Positions 2,988 to 55,393 of a stretch of 64,000 nucleotides of DNA are shown one piece after another. The DNA is from Brachyhypopomus gauderio (Eukaryota > Chordata > Actinopteri > Gymnotiformes > Hypopomidae): NCBI RefSeq assembly GCF_052324685.1, contig NW_027506876.1, forward strand, positions 1,381,001 through 1,445,000, given 5' to 3'. Made by a program: the position numbers and the translations under genes. The notes under the pieces are model-generated. The model was not told where the DNA came from and made no database searches. It was given only the letters and a program-made list of their open reading frames with translations. Within the stretch, counting starts at the first letter, position 1, and each line of letters begins with the position of its first letter.

Positions 2988-5900
2988 ATGAAAATGACGG
3001 AGGAAAACAACAAACCAGCGATTACAGTGGAGGATGTGCAGCGTCTAATTAAACAGAAAGATGAGCTTGAGGAACAGATCAAAGCATACTATGATGTGTT
3101 GGAAGATGTAAGTTTCTATCAGCCTCGTATATTATAAACGAAATGAAACTGACTTTCAGTTTGCTAGTAGCTCCTAGCTAGCTTCACTAGCATTATTTGA
3201 GCTGGTGGATGTATAGTTGTTCATGAATTAATACTCTTTATGGTAATGCTCTAGTGTCTAGTAACTAGTAGGTAGTACCTAGTTTTTCTACCCAACCTGT
3301 GATATTGGAGATGTGCTAGCTAGCCAACAGGTACTTCCTACACCAATGGTTTTACCAGTACCATTTCCTTGGTTACTACTACAGTAAACCAGTAAAGTCA
3401 AATGAATTCCTGAATTAACCGTATATTTGTACTTTTGTACTGATGCACATTTCAGCAAGGAGATGTGGGCATGCAGGCTCCTCTGGTGGATGTAGAGGGC
3501 TATCCTCGCTCAGATGTGGATTTGTTCCAGATACGAACAGCAAGACACAGTATCTCATGTAGGTCATTAAACATGCGCAGTGCAGTAAAGGTATAAACAC
3601 ATTTCAACACCTGTTACAGGTAATAGTATATCATCTTGTCTCCCCTGCTTGGTCACAAGAATAGGCATACCTGAACATCATATGTGAGCTAAATGAGAAT
3701 ATTGAGCATCCAATTACTAAACCAGAGGTATTAATATGGAGTTGGCACCCACTGTACAGATACAACAGCTTACACACTTCTGTTAAGACTTTCCATGAAA
3801 TTTTGGAGTGTGTCTGTGAGAATTTATGCCATTCAAAAATTGTTAGGTCAAGCCTATAATTGTCTCAAGTGTCTCTGTGTTTTAACATTACCCTTCAGTG
3901 GAACTAATGGCCTAGTGCTAACCCTGAAGAACAGGCAAGCATTATCCTTTCTCAATCAAACTTTTGTTAGCACTTTGTAATCCAGTGGGTTGTGTATTCC
4001 TGACATGACGTTAAACATGACTCATCACTACAGGAAACACGTTTCCACTGCTCCAGAGTCTAGTGGCAGCCACATGTTTCATAACCACCTCTTTTATCAA
4101 AGATGGCATTCTGTGACAGTGCTACGGTTAGTCACTCTAGAGCTTTTCAGTATAACCCATTCAACAGAAATATTTCTTTATGGAGATTACTTGGCTATGT
4201 GCTTGATTTTATACATCTAAACATGATAATCAAAGAGGGCTGTCTACATAATTGTGGCTGTGTAGTGTATTGACTGTAGATTTTTACTGTATCTGTCAGG
4301 CTTGCAGAATGACCACAAAGCTATCATGGTGGAGATTGAGGACGCCCTCCACAGGCTGCACGCCCGAGAGCGGGCCAAGCAGGAGCAGGACCAAGCAGGA
4401 GCTCCTGTGGAGACCACTGATCAGCTGCCGTCCCTGCCATCCCCTTTCGCCCGAGTGGACGCTGTGACGCAGGGCTCCCCTGCTCATCAGGCGGTGAGGT
4501 CAAGCGCCCTGACCACCTGGTCTTGATAGTCATCAGCCAGAAGAACTGGCTTCACTCATGGTGCTAAGTAGGGGTGAACCGATTATCACCCTACGGAGTT
4601 GATATTCAGATTGTTGGAATTACCACTTGAACTTGTTTCTTTGCCTATAAAACCAGAGTTTAATTTTTTATTGTGCATATCTGATCATAAAACACCTGAG
4701 ACACAAGACAATGTTGTACCCTCTGTGTTATTGAATGGGTTGAAATATGGAGGACACATTAAGTACAGGACAAACACGTCTTCAGTCTGTCTCTACACTC
4801 CGCCCGCGTGTCTCTACACTCCGCCCGCGTGTCTCTACACTCCGCCCGCGTGTCTCTACACTCCGCCCTCGTGCACACTGACTCCGCCCTCGTGCACACT
4901 GACTCCGCCCACGTGCACACTGACTCCGCCCATGTGCACACTGGACTGATATATGTGTTGCATATGTGGAGTGAACCCAGTCAAACTTGGTTTTCCACAT
5001 TAGTGACGTGGGGATGAAACATACATTTAAGTGACAGCGGGAGAGTGTGAGCTTTACTTAGATTTATATATTATATAATATTCATTATTTTATATAAACT
5101 TTTAAATATAAAAAACATTTTGAAAAGCTATATGAAATTTTATACGGTTATTGTCATTGAGATTTGGGAAGCTATTTTTGTTGTTTAATAGAGCAATTTA
5201 AGTTTAGTTTTATCTGTCTGTAGATTAAAATGTTTTTCATTTACTGTTTTTGCAAACTTTATACTGTGTTTTATATATTTTATATTAATTTCTGAGTAAA
5301 AGATTATACATTTTCACACTACAAATATCTAATTTATGGTAAAGAATATCAGCCCCATATATCACGTATTAGTGTCCTTGATTACTAATAATCATTGTCA
5401 GTATTTTCCCTGGCAAAATCATCGATTGACCCCGAATACCAACAATATTGTTTCTGCTACTGTCATGCTTTTGTCCATATGATGATTTCCCTGTACAACA
5501 CTTTGAAAGCTGCATTTGTTATAACTCCTTTTTATACTTCCACTCATTGCTTTGGGTTGTTTAATAATATTGGTATTTGCAGGGCTTACTCACTGGCGAT
5601 GAGATCATTGAGTTTGGTTCTGTCAACACCAGCAACTTCCAGAACCTGCAGAACATTGGATCTGTGGTGCAGCATAGTGAGGGGGTATGTGACCAGGAAA
5701 ACACCTTAAACCTGAGAGAAATCCTTCAGAATGGTTTCCTAACACTGAAGTTCTGTGTCATATACACAATGCAAGTCATGACTTGGAATCTTCCATCCAT
5801 ACTTCAGAAGTCCCTGAGTGTCGCGGTGGTTCGGAATGGACAGAGACTTCAGCTTGGCTTGACGCCTCAACGCTGGCCCGGCAGAGGTCTACTGGGGTAA

Positions 5901-19252: not shown

Positions 19253-24096
<4,844 letters not shown>

Positions 24097-26790: not shown

Positions 26791-26830
26791 TCTGTAGTCA
26801 CTAGCGCATTCACTTCTGTTAATGTAATGA

Positions 26831-31386: not shown

Positions 31387-31880
31387 ATGGCGACCCGAGA
31401 CGTGCGAGTGTACCGAGGCGCGGCGGCCAAGCAGGACGAGGACTCGGACGTGGAGGAACCGCAGCTCGCGTTAAAGAAGTCGGACGGACGCGAGTCACAG
31501 ATCATCCACAGTGGACATTTTATGGTGTCAACTCCTCACATTGAACACCCACCAAAGAAAGGTTACGACTTCGACACTGTCAATAAACAGACCTGTCAGA
31601 CGTACCACTTTGGGAAGACGAGTACGTCGCATCTCTCCATCGATGCTTCCCTAACGAAACTGTTCGAGTGCATGACCCTCGCGTACAGGTGAGTTTCTTA
31701 TTCACCTTAGAAAAACATGACGAATCTACTGGGTAGCACATCTGACATGGGAGAGGACCGCCGTGGTAGACAGAGAGGGTAGACGACCACATGTCCATCC
31801 ACAGACGGCCCCGGTGACAGCGGCGATCGTGCGACGGGGTAGATCTATATATCTCTCTCTACATAGATCTCGCTCTACAT

Positions 31881-31944
<64 letters not shown>

Positions 31945-34900
31945 ACATAGATCTCTCTCTACATAGATCTCTCTCTCTATACATGGATCTCTCTATACAT
32001 GGATCTCTCTCTACATGGATCTCTATCTACATGGATCTCTCTCTACATAGATCTCTCTATTTACATATATCTCTCTCTACATATATCTCTCTCTACATAG
32101 ATCTCTCTCTACATAGATCTCTCTCTGCATAGATCTATCTACATATATCTATCTACATATATCTATCTACATATATCTCTCTACATAGATCTCTCTCTGC
32201 ATAGATCTCTCTCTACATAGATCTCTCTCTACATAGATCTCTCTCTACATAGATCTCTCTCTACATAGATCTCTCTCTACATAGATCTCTATACATAGAT
32301 CTCTATACATAGATCAATCTCTACATAGATATCTCTACATGGATCTCTCTCTGCATAGATCTCTCTCTGCATAGATCTCTCTCTGCATAGATCTCTCTCT
32401 ACTTAGATCTCTATGCATATATCTCTACATAGATCTCTCTCAACTTAGATCTCTCTCTCTACATGGATCTCTATACATATATCTCTACATGGATCTCTCT
32501 CTACATAGATGTCTATACATGGATGTCTCTACATATATCTCTATACATATATCTCTCTCTACATAGATCTCTCTCTTTACATATATCTTTCTATACATAG
32601 ATCTATCTATACATGGATCTCTCTCTACAAAGATCTCTCTACATAGATCTCTCTCTACATAGATCTCTTCTACATAGATCTCTTCTACATAGATCTCTCT
32701 CTTTACATATATCTTTCTATACATAGATCTATCTATACATGGATCTCTCTCTGCATAGATCTCTCTCTACATAGATCTCTCTACATAGATCTCTCTCTGC
32801 ATAGATCTCTCACTACATAGATCTCTCTACATAGATCTCTCTACATAGATCTATCTATTCATGGATCTCTCTCTGCAAAGATCTCTCTCTACATAGATCT
32901 CTCTCTACATAGATCTCTATACATAGATCTCTATACATAGATCTCTCTACATAGATCTCTCTACATAGATCTCTCACTACATAGATCTCTCTCTACATAG
33001 ATCTCTCTACATAGATCTATCTATTCATGGATCTCTCTCTGCAAAGATCTCTCTCTACATAGATCTCTATACATAGATCTCTATACATAGATCTCTCTAC
33101 ATAGATCTCTCACTACATAGATCTCTCACTACATAGATCTCTCACTACATAGATCTCTCTCTACATAGATCTATCTATACATGGATCTCTCTCTGCAAAG
33201 ATCTATCACTACATAGATCTATCTTTACATGGATCTCTCTCTGCAAAGATCTATCACTACATAGATCTATCTTTGCATAGATCTCTATACATAGATCTCT
33301 CTACATAGATATCTATACATAGATCTCTATACATGGATGTCTCTACATATATCTCTCTCTACATAGATCTCTCTACATAGATCTCACTACATAGATCTCT
33401 CTCTACATAGATCTCTCTACATAGATCTCTCTACATAGATCTCTCTACATAGATCTCTCTACATAGATCTCTCTCTACATAGATCTCTCTCTACATAGAT
33501 CTCTCTCTACATAGATCTCTCTCTACATAGATCTCTCTCTACATAGATCTCACTCTACATAGATCTCTCTACATAGATCTCTCTACATAGATCTCACTAC
33601 ATAGATCTCACTACATAGATCTCTCTCTACATAGATCTCTCTCTACATAGATCTCTCTCTACATAGATCTCTCTCTCTACATAGATCTCACTACATAGAT
33701 CTCTCTCTACATAGATCTCTCTCTACATAGCCTGCTCGCCAGTTGCTTTTGTCTCGAAGTGATTAGTTTTCTGTCAGGATCCGCGGTGTCAGACTGACGC
33801 CGCACTTAGAGTCTGAATGAACCTGCATCCTAACCCAGTTAGCTGGTGTTACCGTCGTTGCCGGCATCGTTAGACATGAGATAGTCAGTTAATAAACTAG
33901 AGCCAATTAAAATAACCATTACAGCATGTTAATGCTTAAGCACAGAGTCTTCATAGAGTGTGCTGCTAACACCAAACTCACTAGCCGTCCATCGAGGTTA
34001 CTACTGTTGGCTAGTTACTTATTTTGGCTTATTAAATGTTCTAGTTTATGCTAAATAAGTCATATATCAACGACATGGATATAGTTCTGCTCAAGCAGTC
34101 AGTTAAACTCGGGAATTACCGTGTGGACATGTTTAGCTACCTTATACACTTCCCCTTTTGTTTGTAGCGCAGTGCTGTCTGTTGACTTTCGTTGGCCTTC
34201 TACCCAGTGGTGATCGTGCAGTGATGGACGTGCAGGTGCAGGAACCGCTGAAGAGCATGTTGTTGTGGTCAAAGATTGTAAAGGCGTAACACCTGGCTGT
34301 ACGGGTCTGGACATGAGTGGGCAGCTCTGTGTTCCCCTCTCTGGAGGCTAAATTGTGAAGGTGGTGGTAAAATAATGAGCTGTACAACAGTGTCCTCCCA
34401 CCTGCCGTGTCTGGTGGTTCTGCAGGTGGTCAAAGGCACAGACAGCAGTACTGTAGGACGCACAGACTCAGTTATACACGAGAAACCCTTAAACCTCATC
34501 GCAATTAGACGCAATGAACTCTTATAATGCATCTCCGTACGCTTGTTTCCGTTAGTGCATGTACATTTTAAGGGAAGCACTCGTGATAAGACTGCAATTG
34601 AATTGGGTGAAATGTATAAACTTTTTTTTTTTTTTTTCCTTTGGTGATGTTGGCTTTTCCCATATTAGTATGTAACATGTGTCACCATGGTCTAGTTATT
34701 GTATTTCCTACACATAGCTAAAAAACATGATATGTTAATACCATGATAGATTGCCTTATTTCACATATCACTTATTAGCTTGCTTATATCTGTGACTCCT
34801 GTAGTTTTCAGCCCAGCACTGTTGTATGTTGAGCCGTGGCAGTCTGACATGTATGTGGCAGTATCTGGTTGTTGCCTATCTGTTCCTCCTCAGCCCTTAA

Positions 34901-37900
34901 TCAAATTAACTAATTGCTAATGTACATTTTGCAGTTAGAAAGTGTTTGTTCAATTTGAAAAAGTTTTATGGACCATCCATTGGTTGTATGCTTGTAGTAG
35001 TAGCGTGGTTTACTGTTGTTGTTTGTTATCAGACATTAATATGTTAATGGGATGCTAACTTGGCAGTTTTGTCATTTAAAGCTATGTTCATATTTGTTGT
35101 ACTTGTATGACATGCGGAGTGACATTCTCATACACAGGAATGCAGAAAACCACCTTCCCTGTGTGATTCTATACACCCACAAGAGCACTGCCTCTGTTTC
35201 CTCTGGACATTTATATGTGCGCTTGATCTATTGCCTGATTATGAAAAGGAGCCATTGACAACCTGCACATAGTTCAGTATTTGCTGTTTTAAATCATAAG
35301 ATTACATCTCTAAATTTGTTTCTCAGATGTGTTTCTCATGTTCACATCTGTATTTTTCTTGGCTTCTGTAACTAAAGGAGAGAATGAGACCAGACCTGAA
35401 GACTTTAGGTGGCTGTTCTTTACACTCTTGTTTCAGTCCTCTGTCTAGAGGTTTTTATAGACAAGCACTTCCTGTGTTGTCTTTCCTGGTACATTTTAGA
35501 AATGACACTGTTTGGTTACTGTGTCCTTAGTGCAGTGAGAGTGTTTGTCTTCTGCCATTGCTGATTCTGTCCTTTCTTAATATCTCAGCGATACTGGGTA
35601 ATCGGGAGTGGTGTGTCCCGTCACACAGCCTGCGGTGTGAGAAAACACACTCCTGCAAGTGCAGCGAACTTTAACTCTGTGTGAGAGAAATACTGGAAAG
35701 TTTGTTCAGCCTCGCATGTTGTGCAGGAAGCAGGGGCAATCCTTGACCTCCCCGCGTGCCTTCCCCGCGTGCCTTTAATGAGGAACGTGTGAACAAACGG
35801 AAAGAGCAAACAACTAGGAGAGCAAAAATCTAGACAGAGGTGTAGTTTACAATTATTACAGAAACAAAGGTCATCCAGTGTTCTAAACCTTTTAAAAATA
35901 ATAATGGATCAACAAATGAGGTTTGGTTTATTCTGAACTGCATCTAGGATGAAATCTATAAAATAGTGATAGAAGAGTCCTTGCAGATCATGTGCGGTTT
36001 CATATATGGTGGGAACATAGTTATGGGTGTCCATTTTGCCCTTTAGTAACAGTAAACAGATTAGGTTTCTTTGGACTGTCTTTCACTGGAGCCTCTCTGC
36101 TGTAGCGTAGTCTTGTCTGAGAGCTCCTGTCTGAACTTATTCTTCATGCATCTGCTTCAGCAACCAAACTAATTCGTTGTATTCCAAGAGCTGTTACAGC
36201 CGTTAAGGCAGGAAAACAGTTTCTGGACCCCAGAGACTGATAACACCCTACATTCCAGGACACGGAGGAGGAAGGGGAGGCTTGAACAGTATGAAAATGA
36301 TCCCTTTAAAGGACAGGACCAAAATGCTCACAGCACCTGGCGTTCCGTCAGGGTTCCTCAGCCAAGCAGGTATTACAATTGTCTTCTGTTTTGCAATCAG
36401 TGGGAGGCTGGTATCCCCGAAATGGAAGAACTTCAAGGGTCTGAAGCTTCTTTGGAGGGACAAAATCCGCCTGAACAATGCCATCTGGAGAGCCTGGTAC
36501 ATCCAATGTAAGGGCCAGTCACCAGACATGAGCACTGTTAGAATGACAGGTATGAAATGCTTCTGAAACTTCTTTCTGCTGCAGATGTGGAGAAGAGAGA
36601 GAACCCTGTCTGTCATTTCGTCACGCCTTTAGACGGGACCATGGATTCTGGAGTGCATCGTCCTGCAGAGGTGAGGCCAGGGGCTGAACTTCACTCTCCA
36701 TGTTTCCGTCATAGTTGACCGCTGAATCCTGATGTTATGGCTTTTCACTGACCCAAGCTTTTTTTTTTTGCTGACGTAACACAAGGATGTGCTACAGATG
36801 TCATGTGTTCTTGTGGTTTGTCCCTCTTTTCCTGTTTCAAAGGCGATAGCAATTGAAGGGAAGTACTGGAAGAGACGTATCGAGATTGTTCTCAGGGAGT
36901 ACCATAAATGGAGAACGTACTTCAAGAAAAGGGTATAGCGCCTTCATAACTGCACTTCACTTACCATAGGAACACAGTACAGACGGCATCACTTGATATG
37001 TAGTCTACGCAACTAGTGTAGAAGGCTAATTATTTTGTTACTCTATGCAGACTATCATACATGTGGACATTATGTTGATTTAAAGCAAATTTCTTTCATT
37101 TGTGTTCCCAAGGCATTTGTTTACCTGTTTACGTTATTATGCTGTATGTTAATTTCATTGATGTATTAGTTCTGATGCTCACAAGCATTTTTTCAGTGAC
37201 CAAACATTTTATTCTTTTCGCAGTTACAGAAGCACAAAGATGATGACCTCTCCAGTCTTCTCAAGGTAACAGGATCACTCACGAAATCATAAAAAGAAAC
37301 ACAAACATGTATAAATGATTGGATTTGTGGATGCATGGTTCACTGTGCATTGCTCTGCGGAGAACAGTACAACACCCTGTGTACACGTTTCGTATTGATA
37401 TTTTAATCTTACGCATGGGTAAATTTTTTGGATTAACATTTTGATTTCTTGCATTACAAGTGTGTACTGAAGTTTTGCGTACGGCCGTTGGGTTGAGATG
37501 TGTGTTTGTGTGGTCTGGTCCTGTCTGCCCAGTCCATGCTGGTGCATACAGGTGTACCAGCGGGGAACCGTCAGGGCCCTCTACGCCCTCTCCGAGGGCC
37601 TAAAATATTCTTAAAGCATTATATATATAATTATCCAATTTTATTTTATCTACTTACAGTTTGACATTCGACATCTAAACAATTACAAAAATATAAGCAA
37701 ATAAAATATTCACCCGTGTCTATTCAATCTGTGTTGGAAGGTGAGGGGTTAAGTGGAAGCCTGTGAGCCTGTGTCTCCCCCTATCAGGACTGTGATGCCC
37801 GCTGTTCGTTTACAGAGGGCCTGGCAGTTATAATTCAGCGCAATACCAGTTTCAAATGACAGTAAAATTGACCAATCATATCTTCTCTCTTAGTGGGCGG

Positions 37901-40900
37901 GCTTAACTGTATGATAATTTCCGCCCGCTGTGGCGACGCTAGCTGTCGTTAGCGTACCACCTCTAGCTAGTTTCGATTCATTCCTTTGACGTCCTCGTGC
38001 GCGTTGTTTACATATTCCGCTTCCGAGAACCACGGAGCACTGTCGTCTCAGTTTTTCTTTATTGCAGTTTATTAAGAAAGGAAAAAAAAAATTTTCGGGG
38101 TGGGGTAGCGGGCCCAGGTTTAAAGGTCACGGTTCGCTACTGAGGTGTACAGACTAACGCGTGTGGTACAAGTGTACAGACTAACGCGTGTGGCGCGCGG
38201 CAGGTCTACCAGAGGCCACAGAAGAGCTGCACCAATGCCATTCCAAGCTCCGCCTCCTCCTCACGGTACACTCACCAACCAGGCAGTATTGGCTGGTGTG
38301 AAGGAGGAGGCTGAGCTTTGACCAGCATGGGCGTGGCCCTCATGTACCCACAACGAATCATCATAGAGAATTGGCAAATGTACCTAAATAGGGCCACACC
38401 ACAAATACACAGGCCAAAATAAACACATCATGAGACAAGATGTCTCTACCTTCAGAAAATCAGACCTTCTCCTCAGTTACACATATGTACAGCACTAACC
38501 GATGACACAGTGAATGTGGTTCTGGACGTCCTCAGACCAAAGAACTTAACATGGGGGTCTGAACCCCAAAGTTTTCATCTCTGTTGGCAGTTTCACAGCG
38601 TAAAGCCTGTAGAGTTCATCTGTTTGGAGGTCTGTAATCCCTTGGTGCTCCTGTTAAGTCTGAGGCTACAAATAAGACAGACTGCAGAGCTCATTTACAT
38701 ATCACATTTGTATTATAATATGCAAATGTGTAACATAAAATGCCAAGATAAAACAAAAACAGGAATCTTGTCTGTTTAAATGCATGTACTTCATATTTCT
38801 TCAGTTGTCTAACAGCACTACACTACTACAATGCATATGAGTTGAACACTACCACTTTGATAACCAAACCTTAACAGGCCTAATACAGATTGTTGTCATA
38901 CAGGGACCAACCTTGGCCGCCTTGGGCTTTATGCAGACATTTATAAACGTTCCTCCTGGTTTGGTTAATTTGGCCTGTGTTCCTGTTTACAGTGGTTACG
39001 ATGACGTTAAAACACGCATCTCTCCTGTTGACCAACACCATAGGTGTCAACTCTATGCATTCAGCTTTGCATGGGCTTGTCTGCTGACCCCACCTGCCTG
39101 TGCCGTTTTTCTTGCCCTCCCACAAGGGGGCGGAGGAGCAGTTCTCGCTTTTCGGGGTGCATCCCGACGCCGTCCGTCTCCCCTTCTACCAGGACGAGGA
39201 CGTGGGGACCGGCGTCCGCCGCGCCTCCCGGAGAAGCTGCGACTCACCCCTTCCCATGGAGATGGACACCATCTTCGACATGGACGTGCTCATGTCCGAG
39301 TTCTCTGATACGCTCTTCTCCACGCTGGCCTCTCACCAGTCCCTGCCCTGGCCTAACCCCAGAGAGATTGGTAAGACAGCAACTGGCGTATTCCTGGACG
39401 AGCTTTTAGCGTCCATGCTGACGATCTGCTCAGACGATAATGCGTAACGCTAGCTTAAACCTGAAATCACACGTGATGCGTTTGTAATAAGTATGCCACG
39501 ATGACGTGTGGTCCTGTGGTGTAACGGCCACGCCGTCCTCTCAGCGCACGCAGGCAACGCAGACATGATCCAACCTGGTCTCATCCCACTGCAGCCCAAC
39601 CTGGACTTCATGGACACCTTTGAGCCTCTGCAAGGTGAGAACTCAATTGATTGGTTAGATGATTGATTAGTTAGGTGATTGATCTTGGGGGGTTGATCGG
39701 TGGAGGATTGATGGATTGGGTTGTGCCGGTCTAGGTTGGTCTTGAAAATGTGACATGCTCAGAACACTGTGGCCCTGGTTGCTGTGGGCTGTGATCAGCC
39801 CCATCGACAGGGGGGGACAACCGGGTCTGTTGTCCCGGGCCCCATGGCCAGGGGGGCCCATAAAAGAGCCCAGCAATTTATTTTTTATTTAAAGTCTATA
39901 ATTTTTAATAATCTTGAAATCTTTCATTAATATAAAATTCTGTACTCAAAATAAGCTCAATGGCTAAAAATATATGTTTTTTACCTATCTGCATATTTTC
40001 CATTAAGTGCATACACCCCCGCCTCCCACTGAAAAATGGTTTGATCCAGCACCGTAGCCGGCTGGTACCTGCCAAACAGCGGGAAATACAGTGGTGGATA
40101 GTTAAAGTAAACAAAAATCTGGAGCGCAGAAAAGAAAGGAAAAATATTTACCTGACGAATTTTAATGTTGCATTGTGTTCCACGTTTGAAAAGTGCTAAA
40201 GTAGGCTAAAGTACTTGAAAATACTTGAAACTGTAACTTCACAAGCTGTTTGACTGAACAGTTCTCTTGTATTACGTTAACAAATACGAGCCTCTTGTAA
40301 TTCCAGGGGGAAACATGAGAGAACGTGAAGACGTTAAGATTTGGCGTTTTGAAAATGAATAACCATTAAATAATGTGATTAAAAAAGCTAATTATTTCGA
40401 GTATATGTATAAATATTTAACTTAATTAAGTTTAACGTTCTGGGAAATATTGAAATGGACCTTTAAAGTGACGTACAAGTGCTTTAATTCACCTTATAGA
40501 GGTGTATGAGCCCTGCAAACATGACTTTGTTCATTGCGCTGAAGCGTGGCGCGCGCGAAGTTACAAAATTCAAGAGGTGCATGATCTCGCAAATCGACAG
40601 CGTGAGGCCCTCGCGCACGGGCGCGTCATTTTCCCCGCGCGGGCCCTCGCGCCGCTCGCGACGCGTCAAGTATAAACCAGTCAGCTGTCAGAAACAGCTT
40701 TGATGTGTGGCTATATTATATACTATATGACCTAACACAAGGATTGTCTGCTACAGAGGAAATTCAAATGACGTAAGCGGGCGGGGGGCACATGAAACTT
40801 TCTTGTCCCGGGCCCCAGCAAGACTGTCAACGGGCCTGGCTGTGATACATTTTTCCTGTGATTTTTCCACATTTGTGGCCCTGTTAGAGGTTGCGGGCCA

Positions 40901-43900
40901 AGCTGAATACAGAACAGCTTCTTGATTTCGAAATGCCCATCTTATAATGTGCCTCATGTCATTGTTTATAATATATGGTGACATATATCATATATGGTGA
41001 TTTCTCCTTTGTTTGTCAGATCTTTTTATTTTTTGTGGGCCTCCATTCCAAACAACCCTCTTCATTATTAACACCAAGTTCTACAGATGTGCCCCCACCA
41101 CTGTGTTTGGGTGGAGGTGTTGTAGCACTGTCACCCCCACTGAAACCTTCCTCCTTCTCTCCTCTTAACTGCCAGATCTGTTTCACCCCCTGCGTCAGCC
41201 TGTCTACCCTCCCACCTCCCCCACTGCCCCAACCACCACTCCCTTACATAGTAGCAGCACTCCGACGCAGGTAAACCCGCTGGGTCCACACGCCCTCATG
41301 ACCTTTCACCCCTTGAGTCTCCACGGGTAGGGGTGGTATTTCACACTGGCAGTAGAGTCCCGCAAGGTGTTTGCACAACACGTGTAATACTGGCTTAACA
41401 CTTAACACTTCCATGTAGCTGTTCAGGACACAAATGAGTCAGGTGTGATTAAGCTGTGTGGAATGAGAGATGGCTTGCCTCAGATTAGCGTGGCGCTACA
41501 CAACACCTTTGAGTCAGGCTCGGCATTTGGTGCCATGTTTTTCAGTAGGTTTCTACATACTGCGTTTGTCGAACACGTATCAAATACCTCGTTCTGGACA
41601 AACACAACGGCAGTTATTATTTAGTAATTACAACACTATTCAGTTTCCAAACCTACCTGGTGAAACTGAGAAATCGTGGTGAAAATATAGAAGGATTAGC
41701 CGACTATTGTTCTATTGTCAGCATGCCAAACGTTGTGCTGTGCGGTCTAACCGTGTCCTCTCCACAGGCGCCGTTGCTGCCGTCCATGTCTCTCCCCCCA
41801 GAACTGAGCTCCATCCCGCTGGCTCCGCTCTCCAGCTCCCCTTCCATGTCCAGTCAGGGTGGCCTCGACTCGGTCAGCTTCATGTCTCTCTTCCCTACAT
41901 GCCTGTGTTCTCAGTCCGTCATGGCTCCCACAGCGGCCCTGCCCCCGCCGTCTGCGCACACGCTGCGCTGTCTGCCCATCGCCCCCCTGCCCCAGCCCGT
42001 GCCCACCGTGCCCACCGTGCCCACCGCGGTCACGCATGCCGCCCCGTCCCCCGTCACTCCCAGCGCGGCCGCCACCAGCGCCAGCCAGTCCAGCTTTGCC
42101 CTTTCCCCGGCCCCCTCGCGCCAGGACGCCGTGGCGGGGGGGCAGGTGGCCCCGTCCTGCCCCCCTTTACCCCCGCCGCCTCAGACCTTCGCCATGCCCT
42201 GCTCCATTCTGCCCTCCAGCTCCACGAAGAAGAACCGGCCCATCGTGCCCTCGCCTCGCCTCATACTAGGTCAGTGCTTCCCCTGCCACAGGTCACGCAG
42301 CCAGACCACTGACTATGGTGGAAACAAACATTTTTGTTACGTCTGTCAATATGCTGATATGAGAGAAATGGAGTCCTAAAACACTAAAAACAGAATTTAT
42401 GCTTCGTTCATTGGGTTTTAAAGAGATTGACAGCTTGTATTTATGCATTAACGTTTCCATTTTCATTTTGCTTCATTTCCAGGTCCTGCCAGTGCAGTGA
42501 TCGTCACTCCACCTCCCCGTAAATCGGATGCTGTCCCGACTACCAACGTGGTCATCACCTCCTCCTGCATTCCGCTCGTAAGCCCTCACTTCTCATATTA
42601 ACTCTACAACAGGCTCTTTTTGGACAGCTGTTGGAGTCCAGTTTCGTTTTTGCTCCTTTTCACAGGGGTCTAGCTTCCACATTGTCTCACAGAACCAGAA
42701 ATCGCCTCAACTCATTGTGCCCAAGCAGGAAACTGCCCCGTGTGCACCCAGTTGCAAGAGCCCTGCTCCCTCTCCCTGCTCAGGTGAGACACACTCTTTC
42801 AGGTTCATCCTCATTTTCCAAACATCTAAACAACCGAAAGTGTTCAAGTGCCCCACCCAAAATTGACTTTGGAATCTTTTTCTTGGCAGCATAATAAATC
42901 TCTTAGTGCCACCAGTAAACTTTATATGGCCTCTTTGTTTTCGTCCTCATTTTAAGTACGTCTATGCTGTTTGTTCCTACTTTTCAGCACGCGATAGACG
43001 AAATTCAGGTCAAGGGTCACCTCTAGGGGTGGAGCAGGTGCCAAGCCCACAGTCTCCACTCAACAGCACCACGGGCCTGACCAAGAACGAGACCACCCAG
43101 GTAGCCAGACAGTGTGCTCTTAGGGTTAGAGCTTACCCTTAACACCTAACCCTTAACACCTAACCCTAACACTGATGAGCCTGCTAACCCTAACCTTAAC
43201 CCCTAACTCTTAACACTAACCCTGCTGAATTTACAGACTGCACCCAACTAAACTAGCACCACAGTAATTTCTACAAGTACTGGTTCCTCACTACATCTGA
43301 CAAGTTCTTTCTATGTCTGGCCTGAAACAGCAACATATTCCAAGCCTGAATGAAGTTTGCCAAAGAAATAATCATATGGAGAAAAGTTTGAATAACAAAG
43401 GTTGAACTTTTTGGCTGTAAAACAAAATAAATGTGCAAAAAAACGTCACAGCACAGCATGGCATCAAAATCATGGCAGCGTCTTGCTTTGGGGGTGATCA
43501 TTCCGTAATGGGGAACCGGGACTTTGGCCATTTAGGGCCAAAACGTTGTCTCCTGCTATAACACTTATATTTCACGAATTTCATGTTTCAGCATGATGGC
43601 AACCTAAACACATTTCCAAATGTTCATTTGGCCACTAAAATCGTTCTTATTTCTGGTTTGTTATTTTGACCCTGTTCTCTTCCCCCGTCCTGTTTTTGTT
43701 TGTGTTTGCTCAGAGTCGGCGCGTGAACCACATATCGGCTGAGCAGAAAAGGCGATTCAACATCAACGTGGGCTTCAAGACTCTCTGCACCCTGGTCCCC
43801 ACTCTCAAATCACAGTCCAATGTAAACTACTTCTCCTGCACTCTTTACTCTTCTCCTGCACTCTTTACTCTTCTCCTGCACTCTTTACTTGTCTGAGTGT

Positions 43901-44165
43901 ACAGTACCATTCATCAGTTGAAAGCAGTAATGGTCTTGTTGATGTTTTTGATGTGTTGGTCTTGTGACTGAAATTGTGTGACTGATGGTTAATGCCACTT
44001 TAGTGTAATTTTACTTTTTACCTGTTTAAAGGTTATGTTAACTGTTTAAAGGTTATGTTAACTGTTTAAAGCAGGGGTGCCCACAGTTTTCAGCTTGCGA
44101 GCTACTTATAAGATGACCAAGTCAGAAAGATCTACCGGGGGTGGCGGCGAACGTAATTTGTTGAG

Positions 44166-44197
<32 letters not shown>

Positions 44198-47071
44198 GGC
44201 GAACGTAATTTGTTGAGTGGATTGCAGATTGGCTACCGTGAATGTCAATCAAAATACAACCGTCAGAGCAGATGTGCTGATTCATCTACTACTATTTTAT
44301 GTGACGCGATCTACGCACATTCCTTCGCGATCGACCGACACTTCCTTCGCGATCGACCGGTCGATCGCGATCGACGTAATGAGCACCCCTGGTTTAAAGG
44401 TTATGTTAACTGTTTAAAGGTTAGGTTAACTGTTTAAAGGTTAGGTTAACTGTTTAAAGGTTATGTTTACAGAGTGTGCGTAGCATTATCTATTAGAGAG
44501 CTGAATCCATTTTGGTTACTGTTCCAGGAAAAAATGGCGCATGACATTTATTTCACAATTTTTAGATATTTCTTTATTTTTATTATGAGCCTGTACATCA
44601 GTGGGACTCCAGCTACCAACTGGGACTGCAGACAAACACGTTGTGTTGTGAGCAGTGTGAACCGAGCTGGCATCGCGCCTAATTCAGTGTTGTGGACTGG
44701 ACTTGTTTTGTTGATGCTGTTGTAGACTGTTGGTTCACATATTAGTCCAAATCAGTGCTTGTGGCTGCAATGTCTTCATCATCTCACTGTTCTGACCCTT
44801 TTGGAAGAAAATGGGTTAAAAGTTTTACCACAGTCATTAGATTGGCATATTAGTGGGGGAATCCTTAGTGTTTGTCGTGTAACACCTGAAAAGTCCACCA
44901 GGGGTCAGACAGCAGCTTTTGGAGTGTCTGTGCCTGCTTTGATAACTTCACCCTAGATGAGGGAGAACAGTGTGAAATAAGCTTGAGTGCACAAAGCACA
45001 CATTTTCACAATTATGCAGGTTCCTTCCACTGCCAGTGTGTTCAGGTTCTTAAAGAGGCTCTTCAACCTGAATGGCTGCCTCTCTGTTTGGGTTGCCAGA
45101 TCAGTAATGCCGTAACCCTCCAGAAGACCGTCGAGTACATTGGAAAACTGCAGCAGGAAAGGCAGCAGATGCAGGAGGAGACGAGGCGACTGCGTGAGGA
45201 GATCGAGGAGCTCCAGGCATCCATAAAGTTAGTTTTCCCCATTATTATAAATGAAATGTGTAGTTTCATGTGTAGAAAGTGATAATTAAATACTTGTGGA
45301 GACCAATAGCAAGTGATCTAATACAGTTTTCAGCGTAATGACACGGTTTAGCTCCATGAAGAGTTGAGGTTGTACTCCCCTCCGTCAGCTTGAGCAGTGC
45401 CGTCCCATGAGAGGACCGCACACAGTTATGGGGCCGACTGCTTTCAGACATTTCTTGAAACTGACTGCTGTTTGTTTTCTATTAAAGTTCATGCCAGGAA
45501 CAGCTCCCAGAGACTGGCGTCCCCATTACGCGCCATCGTTTTGATCATATGAAGGAGAAGTTTGATGAGTATGTCAAGAACCGAACTCTGCAGAACTGGA
45601 AGTTCTGGGTTGTATCCTTTTCAGACCCAGTTAACGGCTCAGCTGGAGGGGTGTGACCTTCTTCCACATGGTTACGTGTGGATATATCCTGAAAACTGCA
45701 GTAACAAAGGCAGTTTGAATGGTGTGAGAGCTAATCTGTGCCTGTGGTGGGACTGCAGAGGAATGACCTCTGAACACCCACTTCACCGCCCATCTCGTTG
45801 CTCGTCTTTACTGCTACCACAAAGTTATAGATCACAAAACTTTAATGCATCCAGGTTGTAAATTAACAACATGGTTTGTTACGATCAAACAATGTATACG
45901 GTGTTTATTGACACAATCAAGACTCTCTTTTCCTTAAAGGTTTTCTTCCAGTTTAGCATCATCATTAGGCCTCTGTTTGAGTCCTTCAACGGGAGTGTGT
46001 CCACCAGCAGCAGGAGTGAACTGTGTGACAGCACCATGCAGTGGCTGGACCGGGACTGTGCTTTGCCCATCCTCAGACCCAGTAGGCATTTCCACGCACT
46101 CACACGGCTGCTCAGTGAAGCCCTTGCTTGGCTTGGTGCTATAGTCCACAGGTCTCCTGCTGGGTTGCCAAAGAACCTGCAGTCTGTCCACATTTTAGTT
46201 TTATAATAGCCACTAAACCAACTGAGAACTGGTGAAACACCACATTGATTGGTTGAGACGGCAACGCATATTTAATGCATATGCTCTGGCACCGTTATTA
46301 TTTTGTCTGCAAGCATTAAATAATTTGGCCAAAAATAATGTCTAACCTTGCAAATATCCACTGTAGGCTTATTGTCTGCCTCAAAGAAAGCAGATGATTC
46401 AGCAGATATGTGATTTTGAGTCATCGCCTTCCTCTCTTTTTAATTTGTATGTGTTAAAGCATATCGAGATGCCTATCTTTAAAACGGCAGTGTACTGAGG
46501 TTTTTTTCTTTGGTTTTTGTAAAAAGATTTAATAAAAAAAAGATAGGACCATGCTACAAAACATCCGCCATTAAGTGTGTACGTCACAGAATAAAATAAG
46601 ATGGAAAGAGTGGGAGTGAAATGGACATTGGAGACCCCAAATTGGCAAAATCCATTAAGCCATCAGTGAAAACATTTCAAAGCAGAAGCACATAGATATT
46701 CTGTTCATGGCAATCATATGGAAACATTTAATAATGTGAAATCAAGCTTAGGGTAGAGATAGGAGTCATCTGGTTGGTCTGTTTCATGACAAGCATCCCA
46801 GATTTTTATTTGCGTTTAGTGTGTATTTTTAGCTCATTGCTTACACAGCATTTGATTATAATGAGATAAGGTTTCCTTATTAGGAGTTTCAGACAGTCAG
46901 CTTGATCTCCATCTGTTATTCACTGGTCTGTCTTCTCTCGCACTAACAGTGGTGTTACGGACACTACGGCAGCTAAGCACTACAACGTCCATCTTGACTG
47001 ATCCTGCGCTCCTTCCGGAAGAATCCAGGCAGGCAGTAATCGGTCCTAAACAGCACTCTGCCGAGTCCTAG
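31387..47071 (+). CDS. mlxip: MLXIP (MondoA), glucose-6-phosphate-responsive bHLH-Zip transcription factor
   Basis: Seventeen exons: 31387-31688, 36401-36507, 36585-36670, 36843-36932, 37224-37265, 39127-39370, 39545-39634, 41176-41270, 41768-42269, 42483-42577, 42666-42783, 42988-43100, 43714-43821, 45100-45227, 45488-45611, 45952-46081, 46950-47071. They total 2496 nt, 831 residues (human 919). The Mondo conserved regions are visible: SGHFMVS (42-48), the KKGYDFDTVNKQTCQTY segment, LVSPKWKNFKGLKLLWRDKI and IEIVLREYHKWRTYFKKR. MSEFSDTLFSTL and GNADMIQPGLIPLQPNLDF follow. A Pro/Ser-rich centre (exon 9) leads to the basic HLH start HISAEQKRRFNIN (about residue 634), the zipper, and the C-terminal cytoplasmic-localisation domain (NWKFWVFSIIIRPLFESFNG). 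It pairs with MLX at carbohydrate response elements such as TXNIP. The KKGYDFDTVNK block distinguishes it from ChREBP. Exon 6 starts differently from the human protein. Confidence 0.95.
31841..33730. repeat. 1.9-kb ACATAGATCTCTCTCT minisatellite in MLXIP intron 1
   Basis: More than a hundred degenerate units of 12-16 bp with the form ACATAGATCTCTCTCT, including a (CT)n/(AT)n segment at 31880-31942. Most units contain AGATCT. Reading frames across it give spurious repetitive ORFs on the minus strand. Confidence 0.95.
33731..36400. other. Remainder of MLXIP intron 1
   Basis: No exon or clear mobile element identified. The content is unique-looking, with a T-run at 34622-34637. Confidence 0.4.
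39796..40838. mobile_element. hAT-like DNA transposon in MLXIP intron 7
   Basis: The left end is CAGCCCCATCGACAGGG and the right end, reversed, is CAGGCCCGTTGACAG, so the termini form imperfect inverted repeats. The perfect 8-bp duplication GCTGTGAT flanks both sides (39788-39795 and 40839-40846). Internal CCCGGGCCCC blocks are repeated near both ends. No intact transposase is encoded. Confidence 0.85.
43115..43230. repeat. Degenerate telomere-like (CCCTAA)n tract in MLXIP intron 12
   Basis: TTAGGG at 43119, then repeated CCTAACCCTTAACA and ACCCTAAC-type units through about 43225. This looks like an interstitial telomeric or related satellite tract. Confidence 0.7.
43829..43890. repeat. Three 20-bp tandem units after MLXIP exon 13
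   Basis: CTTCTCCTGCACTCTTTACT is repeated three times, starting 8 nt after the exon 13 donor. Confidence 0.9.
44029..44475. repeat. 20-bp tandem array interrupted by a hAT-like MITE
   Basis: Units of GTTATGTTAACTGTTTAAAG occur at 44029-44071 and resume at 44392-44470. A mobile element (44072-44391) splits the array. Confidence 0.85.
44072..44391. mobile_element. hAT-like MITE in MLXIP intron 13
   Basis: The ends are CAGGGGTGCCCA and the complement of CAGGGGTGCTCA. They are flanked by GTTTAAAG on both sides (44064-44071, 44392-44399), which fits an 8-bp duplication, although the host tandem array contains the same word. The interior has a run of about 29 G (44168-44196) and GATCGACCG-type palindromes. 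Confidence 0.8.
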
Positions 47072-48735: not shown

Positions 48736-48740
48736 GGTAG

Positions 48741-49163: not shown

Positions 49164-52100
49164 GAATGTGCAGCCTGGAGCAGCCGGAGGCGAGGGCGCC
49201 TCTGCTATAGAGGTGTTGGCCCATCAAGGCATCATCCAGGGCAGACAACAGCAGGAGCTCCAGGAGCTCCGCTCAGTAGTGAATACCCTGACGACCTGCA
49301 TCCAGGCTCTGACGGTACAGGCATCTGCGCGCCAAGAACGCCGATTCCTCCACCCGAGCCCTATAACGGGGACCCGGAGCGCTGTGAGGGCTTCCTGGTC
49401 CAGTGCCAGCTCTATTTTACCAGCATGCCCCACCTGGAGGAGAAGGAGAAAGTCGGCTTCATGGTAAACAGGTTGCCGAGCCCATGGAGATGGGTGCTGC
49501 CGCCCCCCCCCCCCCCCCTCACTTGTACCGCTGGTCCGAGGAGGGGGCGGGCTAGGGTAAGTATCGCTCTGATGGGTAATCTTTTAACTTGGGAGGCGTC
49601 AGTGTCTTACGGGGCGATGTCCTTATCTGTGTTTGCGTTAGTGGACACAGGAGCCTCGGGGAACCTGATGCGGAGGAGCGTCGCTGAGCAGCTGAGGGTG
49701 CCCCTGATCCAACTCGAGGAGCCGAGACGCGTGCATGCACTGGACGGGCGACCTGTGGGCGGGGGTTTTATTTCTCACCGCACTGCACCAGTCACCATAC
49801 ACGTTCAGGGCCGTGGTTTTTTTGTACTCTCTTCCACACGCTATTCCATCACATTAGGTCTCCCATGGTTTAAACTCCACAACCCAGTCATCGACTGGTC
49901 CACGGGTAGGCTGCTGAAGTGGGTAGCGCCCCTGCAGGGCACCCGGTCTCCCTCCCGTGTGTTCGCGCAATCCACCAGCGTTGAGAGCCCTAACATCAGC
50001 TCCACCCCAGTCATTCCCGCTCCGTACCGTGATCTAGCGGAGGTGTTCAGCGCTGCCAAGGCAACCCAGTTACCACCCCACCGACCCTGGGACTCTCACA
50101 TCACCCTCAAGGCAGGTACTACGCCACCGCGCGGTCGAGTCTATCCACTTTCTCAGGAAGAGGAGCGGGTCATGGCTCAGTATGTTAAGGAGGCTCTCGC
50201 TCAGGGCTATATTACTCCCTCCACCTCTCCCGCCTCAGCCAGCGTCTTCTTCGTAAAGAAGAAAGACGGTGGACTGAGGCCATGCGTAGATTACCGAGGG
50301 CTCAATTCCCTCTTAGTGAACTTTGCCTACCCGCTGCCTCTAGTGCCGTCGGCGCTGGAGCAGTTAAGGAGGGCTAAAGTCTTCACTAAACTAGATCTGC
50401 GCAGCGCCTACAACCTTATTCGCGTACGCGAGGGTGATGAATGGAAGACGGCGTTTAGTACCTCTACGGGTCACTATGAGTATCGCGTCTTGCCTTATGG
50501 CTTGGCCTCTGCTCCGTCGTTCTTCCAGGCGTTCATTAACGAGGTCATAAGGGAGTATTTGAATAGATGCGTTGTCGCTTACATCGACGATTCTGATCTA
50601 TTCTCCCTCCTATGGCCAACATGTGCGTGATGTACGGGCAGTTCTGGGCACGCTCTTGCGCAATCGGTTGTATTGCAAGCTCGAGAAGTGCGAGTTCCAT
50701 CTCAGTGAGATGAACTTCCTAGGCTACACCATTAGGCCAGGCTCCGTGCACATGCAGCACAGGAAGGTGGAGGCAGTCGTGAAATGGACGCAGCCTCACA
50801 CACGGCGCGAGCTGCAGAGATTTCTGGGCTTCGCGAATTTCTACAGGCGGTTCATTCGCGCATATAGTCAGATCGCAGAGCCCTTTACTGACATGCTGAG
50901 AGGGGGAGGAGTTAAGCTTCGCTGGACAGAGAGATCTACGAGAGCGTTCAACCAGCTGAAGCAAGCGTTTGTCGACGCGCCGGTTCTGCACCAACCGGAT
51001 CCTAACCGTCCCTTTATAGTGGAGGTAGACGCGTCGAACGTGGGAGTAGGCGCGGTGCTGTCACAGCGACTGAAGAAGCATAGCTCTCTCCGTCCCATAG
51101 CCTTCTACTCGAGGAAGCTCACCACCGCCGAGCGTAACTACGGGGTGGGAGACCGTGAGTTGTTGGCCATGCGCAAGGCTTCCGGTGAGTGGAGACACTG
51201 GCTGGAGGGAGCTAAGCATCCATTCACCGTGCTTACTGACCACAAAAACCTGGAATATATCAGGACCACGAAACGGATGAACGCCCGTCAAGCCAGGTGG
51301 TCTCTGTATTTCTCTCGTTTCAAGTTCCAGGTGACGTACCGGCCAGGAGAGAAGAACCAGCGTGTGGATGCGCTGTCTAGGTCCTTTCCTGGCAGTACGG
51401 AGTCGACGAGCGAGGAGCCGGTGCTTATACCTGAGTGCATCGTGGGAGCTTTGGAGTGGAGGATCGATCGGGAGATCGAGGCAGCGAACCCGCATCCAGG
51501 ATGCCCACCGCACCGTAAGTACGTTCCCCCCGCGCACCGTAGTGCCCTCATCAGCTGGGCTCATACGTCAGTGGGGACGGGGCACCCAGGGGTGTCAAAA
51601 ACGGCTCAGTTGTTGGGGGCTCGCTACTGGTGGCCGGGGCTGCACCGGGACGTACTGCAGCAGGTGGCTGTGTGCGCGGTGCAAGGTGCCACACACTCCT
51701 CCTGCGGGTAAGCTCCTCCCTCTCCCTGCACCCAAGCAACCATGGACGCACATCGCTCTGGACTTCGTCACGGACCTCCCCCCGTCCGAGGAGAACACGG
51801 TCATCATGGTGGTGATAGACCGGTTCTCGAAGATGGTTCGCTTCCTTCCCCTGCGGGGCCTGCCCACCGCATGGGAGACTGCGGATCTCTTGTTTCGGCA
51901 CATATTCCGGCAGTTCGGTCTGCCTGAGGATATCGTGTCGGACCGGGGACCGCAGTTCACCTCACGTGTGTGGCGAGAGTTCCTGTCCAAGCTCAACATC
52001 ACGGTTAGCCTAACCTCTGGTTACCATCCGCAGGCTAACGGACAGGTGGAGCGAGCGAATCAGGAGGTGGGAAAGTTCCTGCGCGCGTACTGCAGCGAGC

Positions 52101-52975
52101 ACGCGGACACATGGTGCGCCCTTCTGCCCTGGGCCGAGTACGCACAGAACTCCCTCACTCATTCCAGCACGGGGATGACACCATTCGAGTGCGTGCTCGG
52201 TCGCCAGCCGCCGCTCTATCCTTGGAACGCCGCGTCCTCAGACCAGCCCATCGTTGAGGAGTGGTGCAAGAGGAGCGAGCGGGTGTGGGAGGACACCCAT
52301 CAGCGGCTGAGGGAGGCGATTCGGCGATTCAAGAGGAAAGCCGACTGTCGGAGGGGAGAGGCCCCATCTTATCAGGTAGGGGATAAGGTGTGGGTCTCCA
52401 CCGAAGATGGACGCCTGGGCAGGAGAGGTAAACTGGGGGAGAGATATGCCAGCCCGTACGTCATCTTGAGGCGGCTTAACCCAGTTACTTATCGCATCAG
52501 TCTGCCCGAAGACAGACGTGTGTCGCGTGCATTTCATGTGTCCGCTCTCAAGCCATACAGAGCAGGTGCATTGGAGGAGGCCTCAACGTCACGGCCGCCC
52601 TCGCCGCTGCAGTTGTCGGACGGACCCGCGTACCTCGTGGAGAGGTTACTGGACTCGAGGCGCAGAAAAGGTGGCTTACAGTACCTGGTGGACTGGGTCG
52701 GATACGGACCGGAGGAGCGCTCCTGGATACCGGCCTCTGAAGTGGTAGGCCCCTCCCTTATCGCAGACTTCCACAGGGAACATCCAGACCAGCCAGCTCC
52801 GCGGCGACGGGGAAGACCGTGTGGGAGTCGACGGGAGGGGTCCTTGGGGGAGGGCTCTGTCACGGTGAGGGGGCCGGGTCGCCACCAGAGGGCGCGCAAC
52901 CCGGCCAGCAGCCGATCCCAGCACACACCCCCGCGCACGCAGCCACTCCCACAGTCGCAATCACCATCATACTGA
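49093..52975 (+). pseudogene. gag-pol of the gypsy element, frameshifted
   Basis: The gag-like start ([13 protein letters not shown]) soon changes frame near 49340. The gag region is short, lacks a CCHC zinc knuckle, and runs through a poly-C tract (49502-49518), which suggests an internal deletion. Protease has DTGASGN at 49643. Reverse transcriptase has [17 protein letters not shown] and a disrupted YIDD active-site region near 50590, where the frame shifts. RNase H begins at VEVDASNVG. A third shift falls in the integrase zinc-binding region near 51700. The integrase core (LDFVTDLPP, SDRGPQFTS, NGQVERANQE) and a chromodomain (YLVERLLDSRRR through WIPASEV, about 52630-52760) are open. As it stands the polyprotein cannot be made in one frame. 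Confidence 0.9.
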
Positions 52976-53300
52976 GCACCTGTTTCTTGTTTACTTTGCA
53001 CTTCTTAAGCCCGCAGGTCATCTGGTCCAGTGCTGCACATTGCCGCTACACGAGCGTCTCTGGTTGATAGCAAGTCCCTACCGTGTGTGTACGCTACGAG
53101 CTTCACCTTGCATCCACAGTGTATGCGCTACGAGCTTTACCTTGCATCTACAGTGTATGCGCTACGAGCTTTACCTTGCATCTACAGTGTGTGCGCTACG
53201 AGCTTTACCGTGCATTACTTGCTGTGTATGCGCTACGAGTATTACTGGTTGCCATGGATAATAAACCACCTTCTGTCCAACCCACGCCCCCGGCGTCACA
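52858..53300 (+). repeat. 3' LTR
   Basis: 443 bp, with four GCGCTACGAG(C/T)-type tandem units. High similarity to the 5' LTR indicates a recent insertion. Confidence 0.95.
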
Positions 53301-53812: not shown

Positions 53813-53818
53813 TTTATT
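53813..53818 (-). terminator. Polyadenylation signal of the cytokine gene
   Basis: TTTATT on the plus strand is AATAAA on the minus strand, 135 nt after the stop codon and downstream of the AU-rich element. Confidence 0.6.
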
Positions 53819-53856
53819 TATAAACCAAATACTTTTACCAATGACAATCATGGACC

Positions 53857-53873
53857 TAAATAAATAAATAAAT
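53857..53873 (-). promoter_or_regulatory. AU-rich mRNA instability element in the cytokine 3' UTR
   Basis: On the minus strand this reads ATTTATTTATTTATTTA: four overlapping AUUUA pentamers, a class II-type AU-rich element of the kind found in short-lived cytokine mRNAs. It is 80 nt after the stop codon and before the polyadenylation signal. Confidence 0.75.
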
Positions 53874-53952
53874 ACATTCAAACATAAATAATGGCATAAA
53901 TTAAAAAATTACTGTTTTGTAATCAGCTTTAACATTGACTACTTGAAAGCAT

Positions 53953-55314
53953 TTATCTTTCAAGAAAGTCAGACAATACAGGTCTTTCCAGCCATCTTGT
54001 CAAGAGCACCAAAAGGCTTCTCACTTTGGACAGCTTCTGATAATCATCATCATCTGTCTGGAAGGCCTTCACGCAGCTGTTTACTGGAGCTTTCGAGTTG
54101 CATTTCTTCCTGTAGTCACGAATGTGCTGCCTGATTGCATTCAAGCCGTCCGTTAGGTTGCTCTGAATGTCTAGAGCAATTGCCTCAGCAAAATATTCAT
54201 CAAAAGTTGAGATCTGTTTGCAGCTCAGTAAATCATTTGTGTCTTTGTCAGGTTCGCTGATGCACCCAACGATGTGGGTTCCGTTGTGCTCAGCAAGAGT
54301 TTGTTCTGTTTCCTTCTTCTGTAAGAAAAACCGCAAAGCCATCAGTGTTTGTTGAGGAATTAAAATACAGTTCTACCATTTCTCAATTGAACATCACAGA
54401 TATGTCTGCATATATAGTATATGTTCTACTGCAGTTATATTGGTGCAACATGCATGTTAACAAGAGAAATGAGCTGGTCAGTTACTCCTCAGCAAAATCA
54501 AGAGTGTTTGTTTGAGATAGCAGACAGGTCTGGACCCAAACTTAATACGCACCAGGAAGTCGAGTAGTTCTTGAGTTCTGTTTTTCATGTCTTTTATGGC
54601 TGAACTAATAGGAAATGTTTGTATGGCATGAATTAAAAGTGTCAAAAATAAAACTGAAAGAGAAGAAGAAAACATGTTATCAGAGAAGTACAGTAATAAT
54701 GAAATAAATAAATATCTAAGCATTTCTTTTCAAATGTAAATTACTAGGACTCTACAGATGACTACATAATTACAGTACCACTCATCTACAGTAGATCTAT
54801 AGTGGTTCTGACCGCGCCAACATCTTCATACACAAACACCTCCCTCGCTCCCAGTCCTCTTGTTACCTCACTGAACTATGCACACCTGACTCTCATGAAC
54901 CTTCAGAAGCCCCAGGAACCTCCAGAGCTTCACGTTCGCTTCTTCATCAGAGACACCAATGTGTGATAAAGGCTCCTCTATGATTTTCTTCCCATTGTCT
55001 TTTGAGTTTGCTCATTCTCTCATATTTGCTCGCTTGAGTTAATGCCTTTCTCAGCCTGCACGAGGGCTTTGCTCTCTCCATGTGAGAGCATTTGTCTAAA
55101 GTAAAGCCTCATGCTGTCTGTTCTTTAGATGTTTTCAGGCAACCAAGATTGCAAGAACTTTGCTACAACATCTTACACAAGGCATGCCATTGCGCAATGT
55201 CCTTCCTTTGAGAGATTCATTCAGATATGTAAATGCTTGCAAAGAGTCTGATCCCTTAGACATTCATCAGGTGAACTTACCAGAGACCTGGAGCTTATTT
55301 CTGATCATGGCCAT
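53953..55314 (-). CDS. Secreted helical cytokine, candidate fish counterpart of IL31 (IL-6/LIF superfamily)
   Basis: Three coding exons on the minus strand: 55314-55281, 54653-54553, 54318-53953. They total 501 nt, 166 residues (human IL-31 has 164 and three exons). Donors are GTAAGT and GTGCGT, acceptors CTTTCAG and CTTACAG, and phases agree. A hydrophobic signal peptide (about residues 1-24, core VLFLTLLIHAI) splits across exons 1 and 2. The mature chain is predominantly helical, with N-glycosylation sequons at N36, N57 and N99, and cysteines C64, C78, C118 and C127. The last helix, around 138-157, is rich in Leu with a Trp (LVLLTRWLER). A TATA box and an AU-rich 3' UTR flank it. It lies immediately downstream of MLXIP on the opposite strand, where human has IL31. 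I see no diagnostic IL-31 motif, so fish M17 or another IL-6-family cytokine remains possible. It was presumably separated further from MLXIP by the retrotransposon. Confidence 0.65.
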
Positions 55315-55384
55315 ATTGATAGCCCTCGCTGGTTTTCTCTCAGTTAGTTTGCTCAGATTGGATTGAAGGTATCCCGCACTGAAC

Positions 55385-55393
55385 TATATATAA
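55385..55393 (-). promoter_or_regulatory. TATA box of the cytokine gene
   Basis: TTATATATA on the minus strand, about 75 nt before the ATG at 55314. With initiation about 30 nt downstream, the 5' UTR would be about 45 nt. Confidence 0.55.

Follow-up and report, generated by a model that had tools for sequence, protein, structure and literature searches.

A predicted three-exon cytokine gene beside MLXIP in Brachyhypopomus gauderio: a candidate fish IL31

The cytokine IL-31 is produced by T cells, causes itch and serves as a drug target; IL31RA was formerly known as GLMR. The locus described here raises the question of whether a fish possesses this cytokine. According to excerpts of a 2016 review IL-31 was unknown in fish to date (PMC4929537), and the excerpted text of a 2026 survey, which worked by BLAST with an E value of 1e-5 and 30% identity, describes IL31 as exclusive to mammals and IL31R as present from cyclostomes on (PMC13203501). 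Literature searches and the excerpts of these two papers yielded no report of a fish IL31, and in the available part of one further article IL-31 appears only in a reference title (PMC3509574). On the receptor side, the accessible sections of a 2007 survey give osmr, lifr.a, lifr.b and gp130 for zebrafish and found no GLMR (PMC1963337). In the partial texts of other studies IL31RA is mentioned for Asian seabass (PMC2893601), appears as the human symbol in a trout table (PMC12428285) and is named together with IL6ST as a duplication (PMC12162339).

We analysed a window of 64,000 nucleotides from B. gauderio, which corresponds to C32:1381001-1445000 of the genome searched (G000; 796.5 Mb, 840 contigs). 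A preliminary description had proposed a secreted three-exon cytokine gene in this window, in the position of IL31 next to MLXIP. Unless a contig is named, all positions are those of the window. The features of the candidate gene are:

55384..55392, minus strand: TATA-like sequence TATATATAG, 70-78 nt upstream of the ATG, read directly
55281..55314, minus strand: coding part of exon 1, 34 nt, with the start codon and the first 11 residues of the signal peptide
54553..54653, minus strand: exon 2, 101 nt, with the remaining signal peptide and most of the first helical stretch
53953..54318, minus strand: exon 3, to the C-terminus and the TAA stop
53813..53952, minus strand: 3' UTR with six ATTTA motifs and AATAAA

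Joined, the three predicted exons give a coding sequence of 501 nt (minus strand, 55314-53953) and a protein of 166 residues, and our reading of the exons bears out the exon number, the consistent phases (1 and 0) and the length given in the preliminary description. With the predicted splicing intron 1 measures 627 nt and intron 2 measures 234 nt. The donor of exon 1 was read from the sequence as CTG/GTAAGT (phase 1, the slash marking the exon end); exon 2 has the acceptor TTCTTCTTCTCTTTCAG and the weaker donor CTG/GTGCGT (phase 0). By eye and by hydrophobicity we placed a signal peptide at about residues 1-24, split by the first intron and followed by a mature part of about 142 residues. The protein has three sequons (N36, N57 and N99) and four cysteines (64, 78, 118 and 127), so that these features, too, are as first described. 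A further in-frame ATG, absent from the preliminary description, lies at 54675 in the stretch preceding the first acceptor; starting there, a two-exon model of 162 aa would carry another signal peptide and an identical mature protein. A TATA-like sequence and the AU-rich 3' UTR were likewise found: the six ATTTA motifs span about 45 nt, four of the six overlap, and the AATAAA follows 134 nt past the stop. An AU-rich 3' UTR with AUUUA motifs is a pattern of unstable cytokine mRNAs.

Chance frames combined with splice-like sites, a decayed gene or some other secreted protein might give a similar picture. Such a reading could draw on the weak second donor (GTGCGT) and on the lack of any relative in Pfam, the PDB or the protein database searched; other frames of about 140 aa are also present in the window, where that of exon 3 by itself (139 aa from stop to stop) is nothing unusual. 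However, its reading frame contains no internal stop, and the TATA-like sequence, the AU-rich 3' UTR and the AATAAA are fittingly placed. We also scanned both strands of the window for gene models of three exons that begin with a hydrophobic leader, have splice scores no worse than those of the candidate, end in a third exon of 300-700 nt and are followed by AATAAA within 300 nt. Across the 64-kb window the scan found nothing but the candidate locus, with two start codons and a single end, and such a model was present in 0 of 100 dinucleotide-shuffled windows. When six 10-kb loci were scanned, five had no such model and the sixth contains the candidate itself. As the thresholds are the candidate's own scores, the test is post hoc and its result descriptive. 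We regard the gene as very probably real, and the absence of a functional cytokine gene at this locus as quite improbable.

In a whole-genome search, in which exon 1 was too short for detection, exons 2 and 3 each matched once, at the candidate locus (the counts are lower bounds), and the search with these two exons found no second copy. Between 47000 and 60000 Rfam returned nothing above its gathering scores. A bacterial promoter scan was set aside as inapplicable to vertebrate DNA.

The position of the gene was assessed from its neighbours, for which the landmarks are:

3021..5876, plus strand: PSMD9 exons, four tblastn segments in order with 39-64% identity to human PSMD9
19621..19857, plus strand: first exon of BCL7 (PF04714)
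31510..47038, plus strand: MLXIP, with HLH by Pfam and its 3' end facing the candidate

From left to right the order is PSMD9, a WD40 gene, BCL7, ALKBH2, UNG, MLXIP, a gypsy-type retroelement and the candidate, which is the next gene after MLXIP and lies on the opposite strand. The WD40 gene stands at the place of CFAP251/WDR66 and was assigned by Pfam WD40 only; its region contains a minisatellite (17199-17730) that is open in several frames. In the PDB comparison the BCL7 exon scored 48.2 bits with BCL7A and 45.7 bits with BCL7B, which is a small margin. For MLXIP, human segments sum to 710 bits as against 521 bits for MLXIPL. UNG (homology search) and ALKBH2 (by eye; no Pfam match) occupy 26509-29425, between BCL7 and MLXIP, and compared with the mammalian order they are inserted between BCL7A and MLXIP in this fish. 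The retroelement, recognised by eye as Ty3/gypsy-type, extends over 48733-53300 between MLXIP and the candidate and includes 34-bp tandem repeats near 53085-53245.

Mammalian IL31, as known from human, lies on the strand opposite to MLXIP, and the candidate adjoins MLXIP in the same way. The available part of a horse gene list, in which strands are absent, runs PSMD9, WDR66, BCL7A, MLXIP, IL31, LRRC43, B3GNT4, DIABLO, CLIP1 (PMC6402180). The fish order matches this list up to IL31, so that, with the exception of UNG and ALKBH2, the left flank is conserved. The MLXIP side and the opposite strand of the proposed IL31 position therefore stand, whereas the right flank does not agree. LRRC43, which had been expected as the right-hand neighbour, was not seen by eye among the open reading frames of the window, and neither DIABLO nor CLIP1 gave a segment at E 1e-3 up to 246 kb beyond it (5000 bases left out). 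By eye this flank is rich in transposable elements and zinc-finger genes. All eight DIABLO matches in the genome fall on contigs C16 and C18 and none on C32. They represent two DIABLO genes (C16:11497044-11498086 and C18:18280028-18281117), which perhaps go back to the teleost genome duplication. Judged by these genes, the right flank of mammalian IL31 is not conserved in this fish.

Human IL31 has three coding exons and 164 residues. The candidate is like it in having three predicted coding exons, a split signal peptide and 166 residues, but human and dog IL31 have three mature cysteines and the candidate has four. In LIF and OSM, too, the first intron interrupts the signal peptide and a large third exon encodes the body of the protein, and the candidate shares this layout with LIF/OSM and fish M17. 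The exon layout thus suits LIF and OSM equally well, and the gene might be a real cytokine of the IL-6/LIF/OSM kind other than IL31, of fish-specific or ancestral LIF/OSM/M17 type, that came to lie beside MLXIP independently. Against this, LIF and OSM are longer proteins encoded at another locus, and the place and orientation of the candidate are those of mammalian IL31. Membership in the IL-3/IL-5/GM-CSF or another short-chain cytokine class would fit a small, secreted and (by prediction) helical protein with four cysteines and, as in GM-CSF, a P-x-x-S-C before the last helix. The genes for IL-3, IL-5 and GM-CSF, however, lie elsewhere and are built of four coding exons separated by phase 0 introns, unlike the candidate with its three coding exons, its phases 1 and 0 and its different locus.

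Database searches did not name a family, in agreement with the earlier remark that no clear sequence motif proves one. As references for mammalian IL31 we used Pfam PF15209 and the PDB entries 22pl (human) and 9uk5 (dog). The candidate shows no significant similarity to mammalian IL31: at E values up to 10 Pfam gave no match to IL31 (PF15209) or LIF_OSM and only five unrelated sub-threshold families. The PDB sequence search returned one histidine kinase and no cytokine, and a large protein database, which may lack vertebrate proteins, produced 21 candidates, every one of them with an E value above 1. Searching the fish's own genome, we found nothing over the cut-off with Pfam LIF_OSM and nothing real with PRF; one sub-threshold LIF_OSM match (E 5.25) was rejected, as by eye the locus resembles that of an LHX homeobox gene. 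The LIF_OSM and PRF families should, we assume, include fish M17 and CLCF1. As these families also come up empty, the PF15209 test may lack the sensitivity to recognise members from fish. The same result can be turned in favour of the LIF/OSM-type reading: LIF_OSM finds no M17-type gene elsewhere in the genome, so the candidate could be that gene.

We compared the candidate with 14 cytokine profiles, and the IL31 profile scored best with 5.4 bits; it was built from three sequences (human, dog and mouse IL31) and the other 13 from one each, which may favour IL31. CLCF1 gave no score. The IL31 alignment is in register over mature residues 5-53 and pairs the first cysteine (C64). The score was reached by 20 of 2000 full shuffles in a first run and 14 of 2000 in a second, by 51 of 2000 local shuffles and by none of 128 ORF decoys. 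Human IL-3 (9.5 bits) and IL-4 (5.9 bits) both score above the candidate on this profile, so we read the signal as that of a helical cytokine with a lean to IL31. A LIF/OSM profile, likewise of three sequences (LIF, mouse LIF and OSM), gave -0.5 bits, and 445 of 2000 shuffles were at least as good. This speaks against a LIF/OSM-type gene, although the sequence comparisons as a whole do not single out IL31; we consider that origin possible but rather unlikely. For GM-CSF the profile score was 1.6 bits, and 78 of 2000 shuffles did as well or better.

Pairwise alignments gave a more mixed result. Among 15 cytokines the three highest global in-register z values were those of GM-CSF (2.96, reached by 5 of 1000 shuffles), CLCF1 (2.6) and human IL31 (1.83); dog IL31 had 1.25. 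In a semi-global run IL6 (z 3.77) and human IL31 (z 3.67, with the alignment out of register) took the first two places. The local alignment to human IL31 reaches 33% identity over 72 columns (pair E 0.035; z 3.65, 3 of 300 shuffles) but was not accepted as support, since it sets the N-terminal half of the candidate against the C-terminal half of IL31. The leading global z of GM-CSF and the likeness of IL31 itself to IL-3, seen in the PDB search and in the IL31-profile scoring, lend something to the short-chain class. Given the shuffle result for the GM-CSF profile and the gene structure and locus described above, we give that class hardly any credence.

IL31 has a cysteine in the AB loop and one before the last helix. 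Global alignment pairs C64 and C127 of the candidate with cysteines of human IL31, whereas a mafft alignment pairs no cysteines. At its first cysteine the candidate carries C[LIVF][ST]x(1,2)D, like IL31: the motif occurs in all three IL31 sequences, in none of 13 other cytokines and in 585 of 20000 shuffles. A sequon stands just before it, as in human and dog IL31. The combination of sequon and motif is found in the candidate, in two of the three IL31 sequences (not mouse), in none of the 13 others and in 12 of 20000 shuffles; the motif was chosen after looking. We take this shared sequon-cysteine motif as suggestive.

The structure prediction and fold search proposed in the preliminary description were carried out, and the models are too weak to use as fold evidence. 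The single-sequence model of the full-length protein had a pLDDT of 59.7 and a pTM of 0.48, with the signal peptide forming one helix; the mature part alone had 50.1 and 0.30. In these low-confidence models the mature part consists of three long helices and two short strands. Neither Foldseek (both models) nor VIA-align (first model) placed a cytokine among the 50, 50 and 49 matches listed, which were designed bundles, kinases, ferritins and others; we do not count the missing cytokine match against the fold. Hydrophobic-moment maxima lie at window starts 31 (0.48), 100 (0.58) and 142 (0.54), with a weaker one at 76 (0.33) and further ones at 61 (0.36) and 124 (0.41). Neither sequence nor fold establishes membership of the IL31 family.

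A search of the genome with human gp130 gave 14 matches, of which we characterised the five within two tandem genes on C10; the remaining nine lie on C2, C4, C8, C19 and C80. We dropped the reading of these tandem genes as an il6st-il31ra pair, since the intracellular parts make both of them il6st. In their region (C10:13957800-13981500) segments with about 95% DNA identity adjoin segments with 76-79%, which suggests gene conversion or recent duplication, and by eye the first copy contains a transposase-like frame. Downstream of the pair and tail-to-tail with it, a third gp130-family receptor gene is found on the minus strand (about C10:13,981,347-13,979,451, part covered). From pieces picked by eye it has FN3 pieces, a transmembrane stretch, a box 1 (FPNPRRSSLSVW) and a short tail. 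Its alignment z values were 35.0 with the fish il6st, 30.9 with human gp130 and 27.9 with human IL31RA; gp130 is thus a little ahead of IL31RA, and the sequence does not name the receptor. Human IL31RA and IL6ST are arranged tail-to-tail. According to the accessible part of one study il31ra and il6st adjoin vasa in spotted gar, striped catfish and cavefish, but neither is present there in pufferfish or in two groupers (PMC9222667). On the basis of this fish arrangement and the tail-to-tail orientation with il6st, the third receptor is taken as il31ra by position. That this genome also carries a receptor gene where mammals have IL31RA strengthens the positional argument for the ligand.

Overall we consider it probable that the candidate is the fish positional ortholog of IL31. 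This reading draws on the order of the left flank, the strand, the three exons, the length, the AUUUA motifs, the IL31 profile, the motif at the first cysteine and the receptor gene. The proposal that the gene is the IL31 counterpart is thus supported in part, by its position on the MLXIP side and by the receptor, but Pfam and the PDB give no match, the profile signal is weak and the structure models could not be used. As the positional ortholog of IL31 the candidate would be a short, secreted, glycosylated helical cytokine of LIF/OSM/IL-31 type with a presumed four-helix fold. Activated immune cells would make its mRNA, which may be inducible and short-lived, and the protein would be N-glycosylated and secreted. 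Its receptor would most likely be the gp130-family chain whose gene lies tail-to-tail with il6st, in combination with an OSMR/LIFR-type chain, and the complex may activate JAK-STAT signalling in barrier tissue or sensory neurons.

We lean slightly towards the broader view that ray-finned fish have a true IL31 and IL31RA, that the pair dates to the bony vertebrate ancestor and is not a mammalian invention, and that earlier surveys missed the ligand, which had diverged beyond the reach of BLAST. The BLAST cut-offs stated in the excerpts of the 2026 survey would miss a gene as strongly diverged as the candidate (PMC13203501). If IL31 were restricted to mammals while its receptor reaches back to cyclostomes, as those excerpts have it, the il31ra of fish would be a receptor without a ligand. 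The candidate is a concrete and testable candidate ligand for it. If it is IL31, the signal would be far older than mammals, and this would open the question of what role the IL-31 axis played before hair and mammalian skin.
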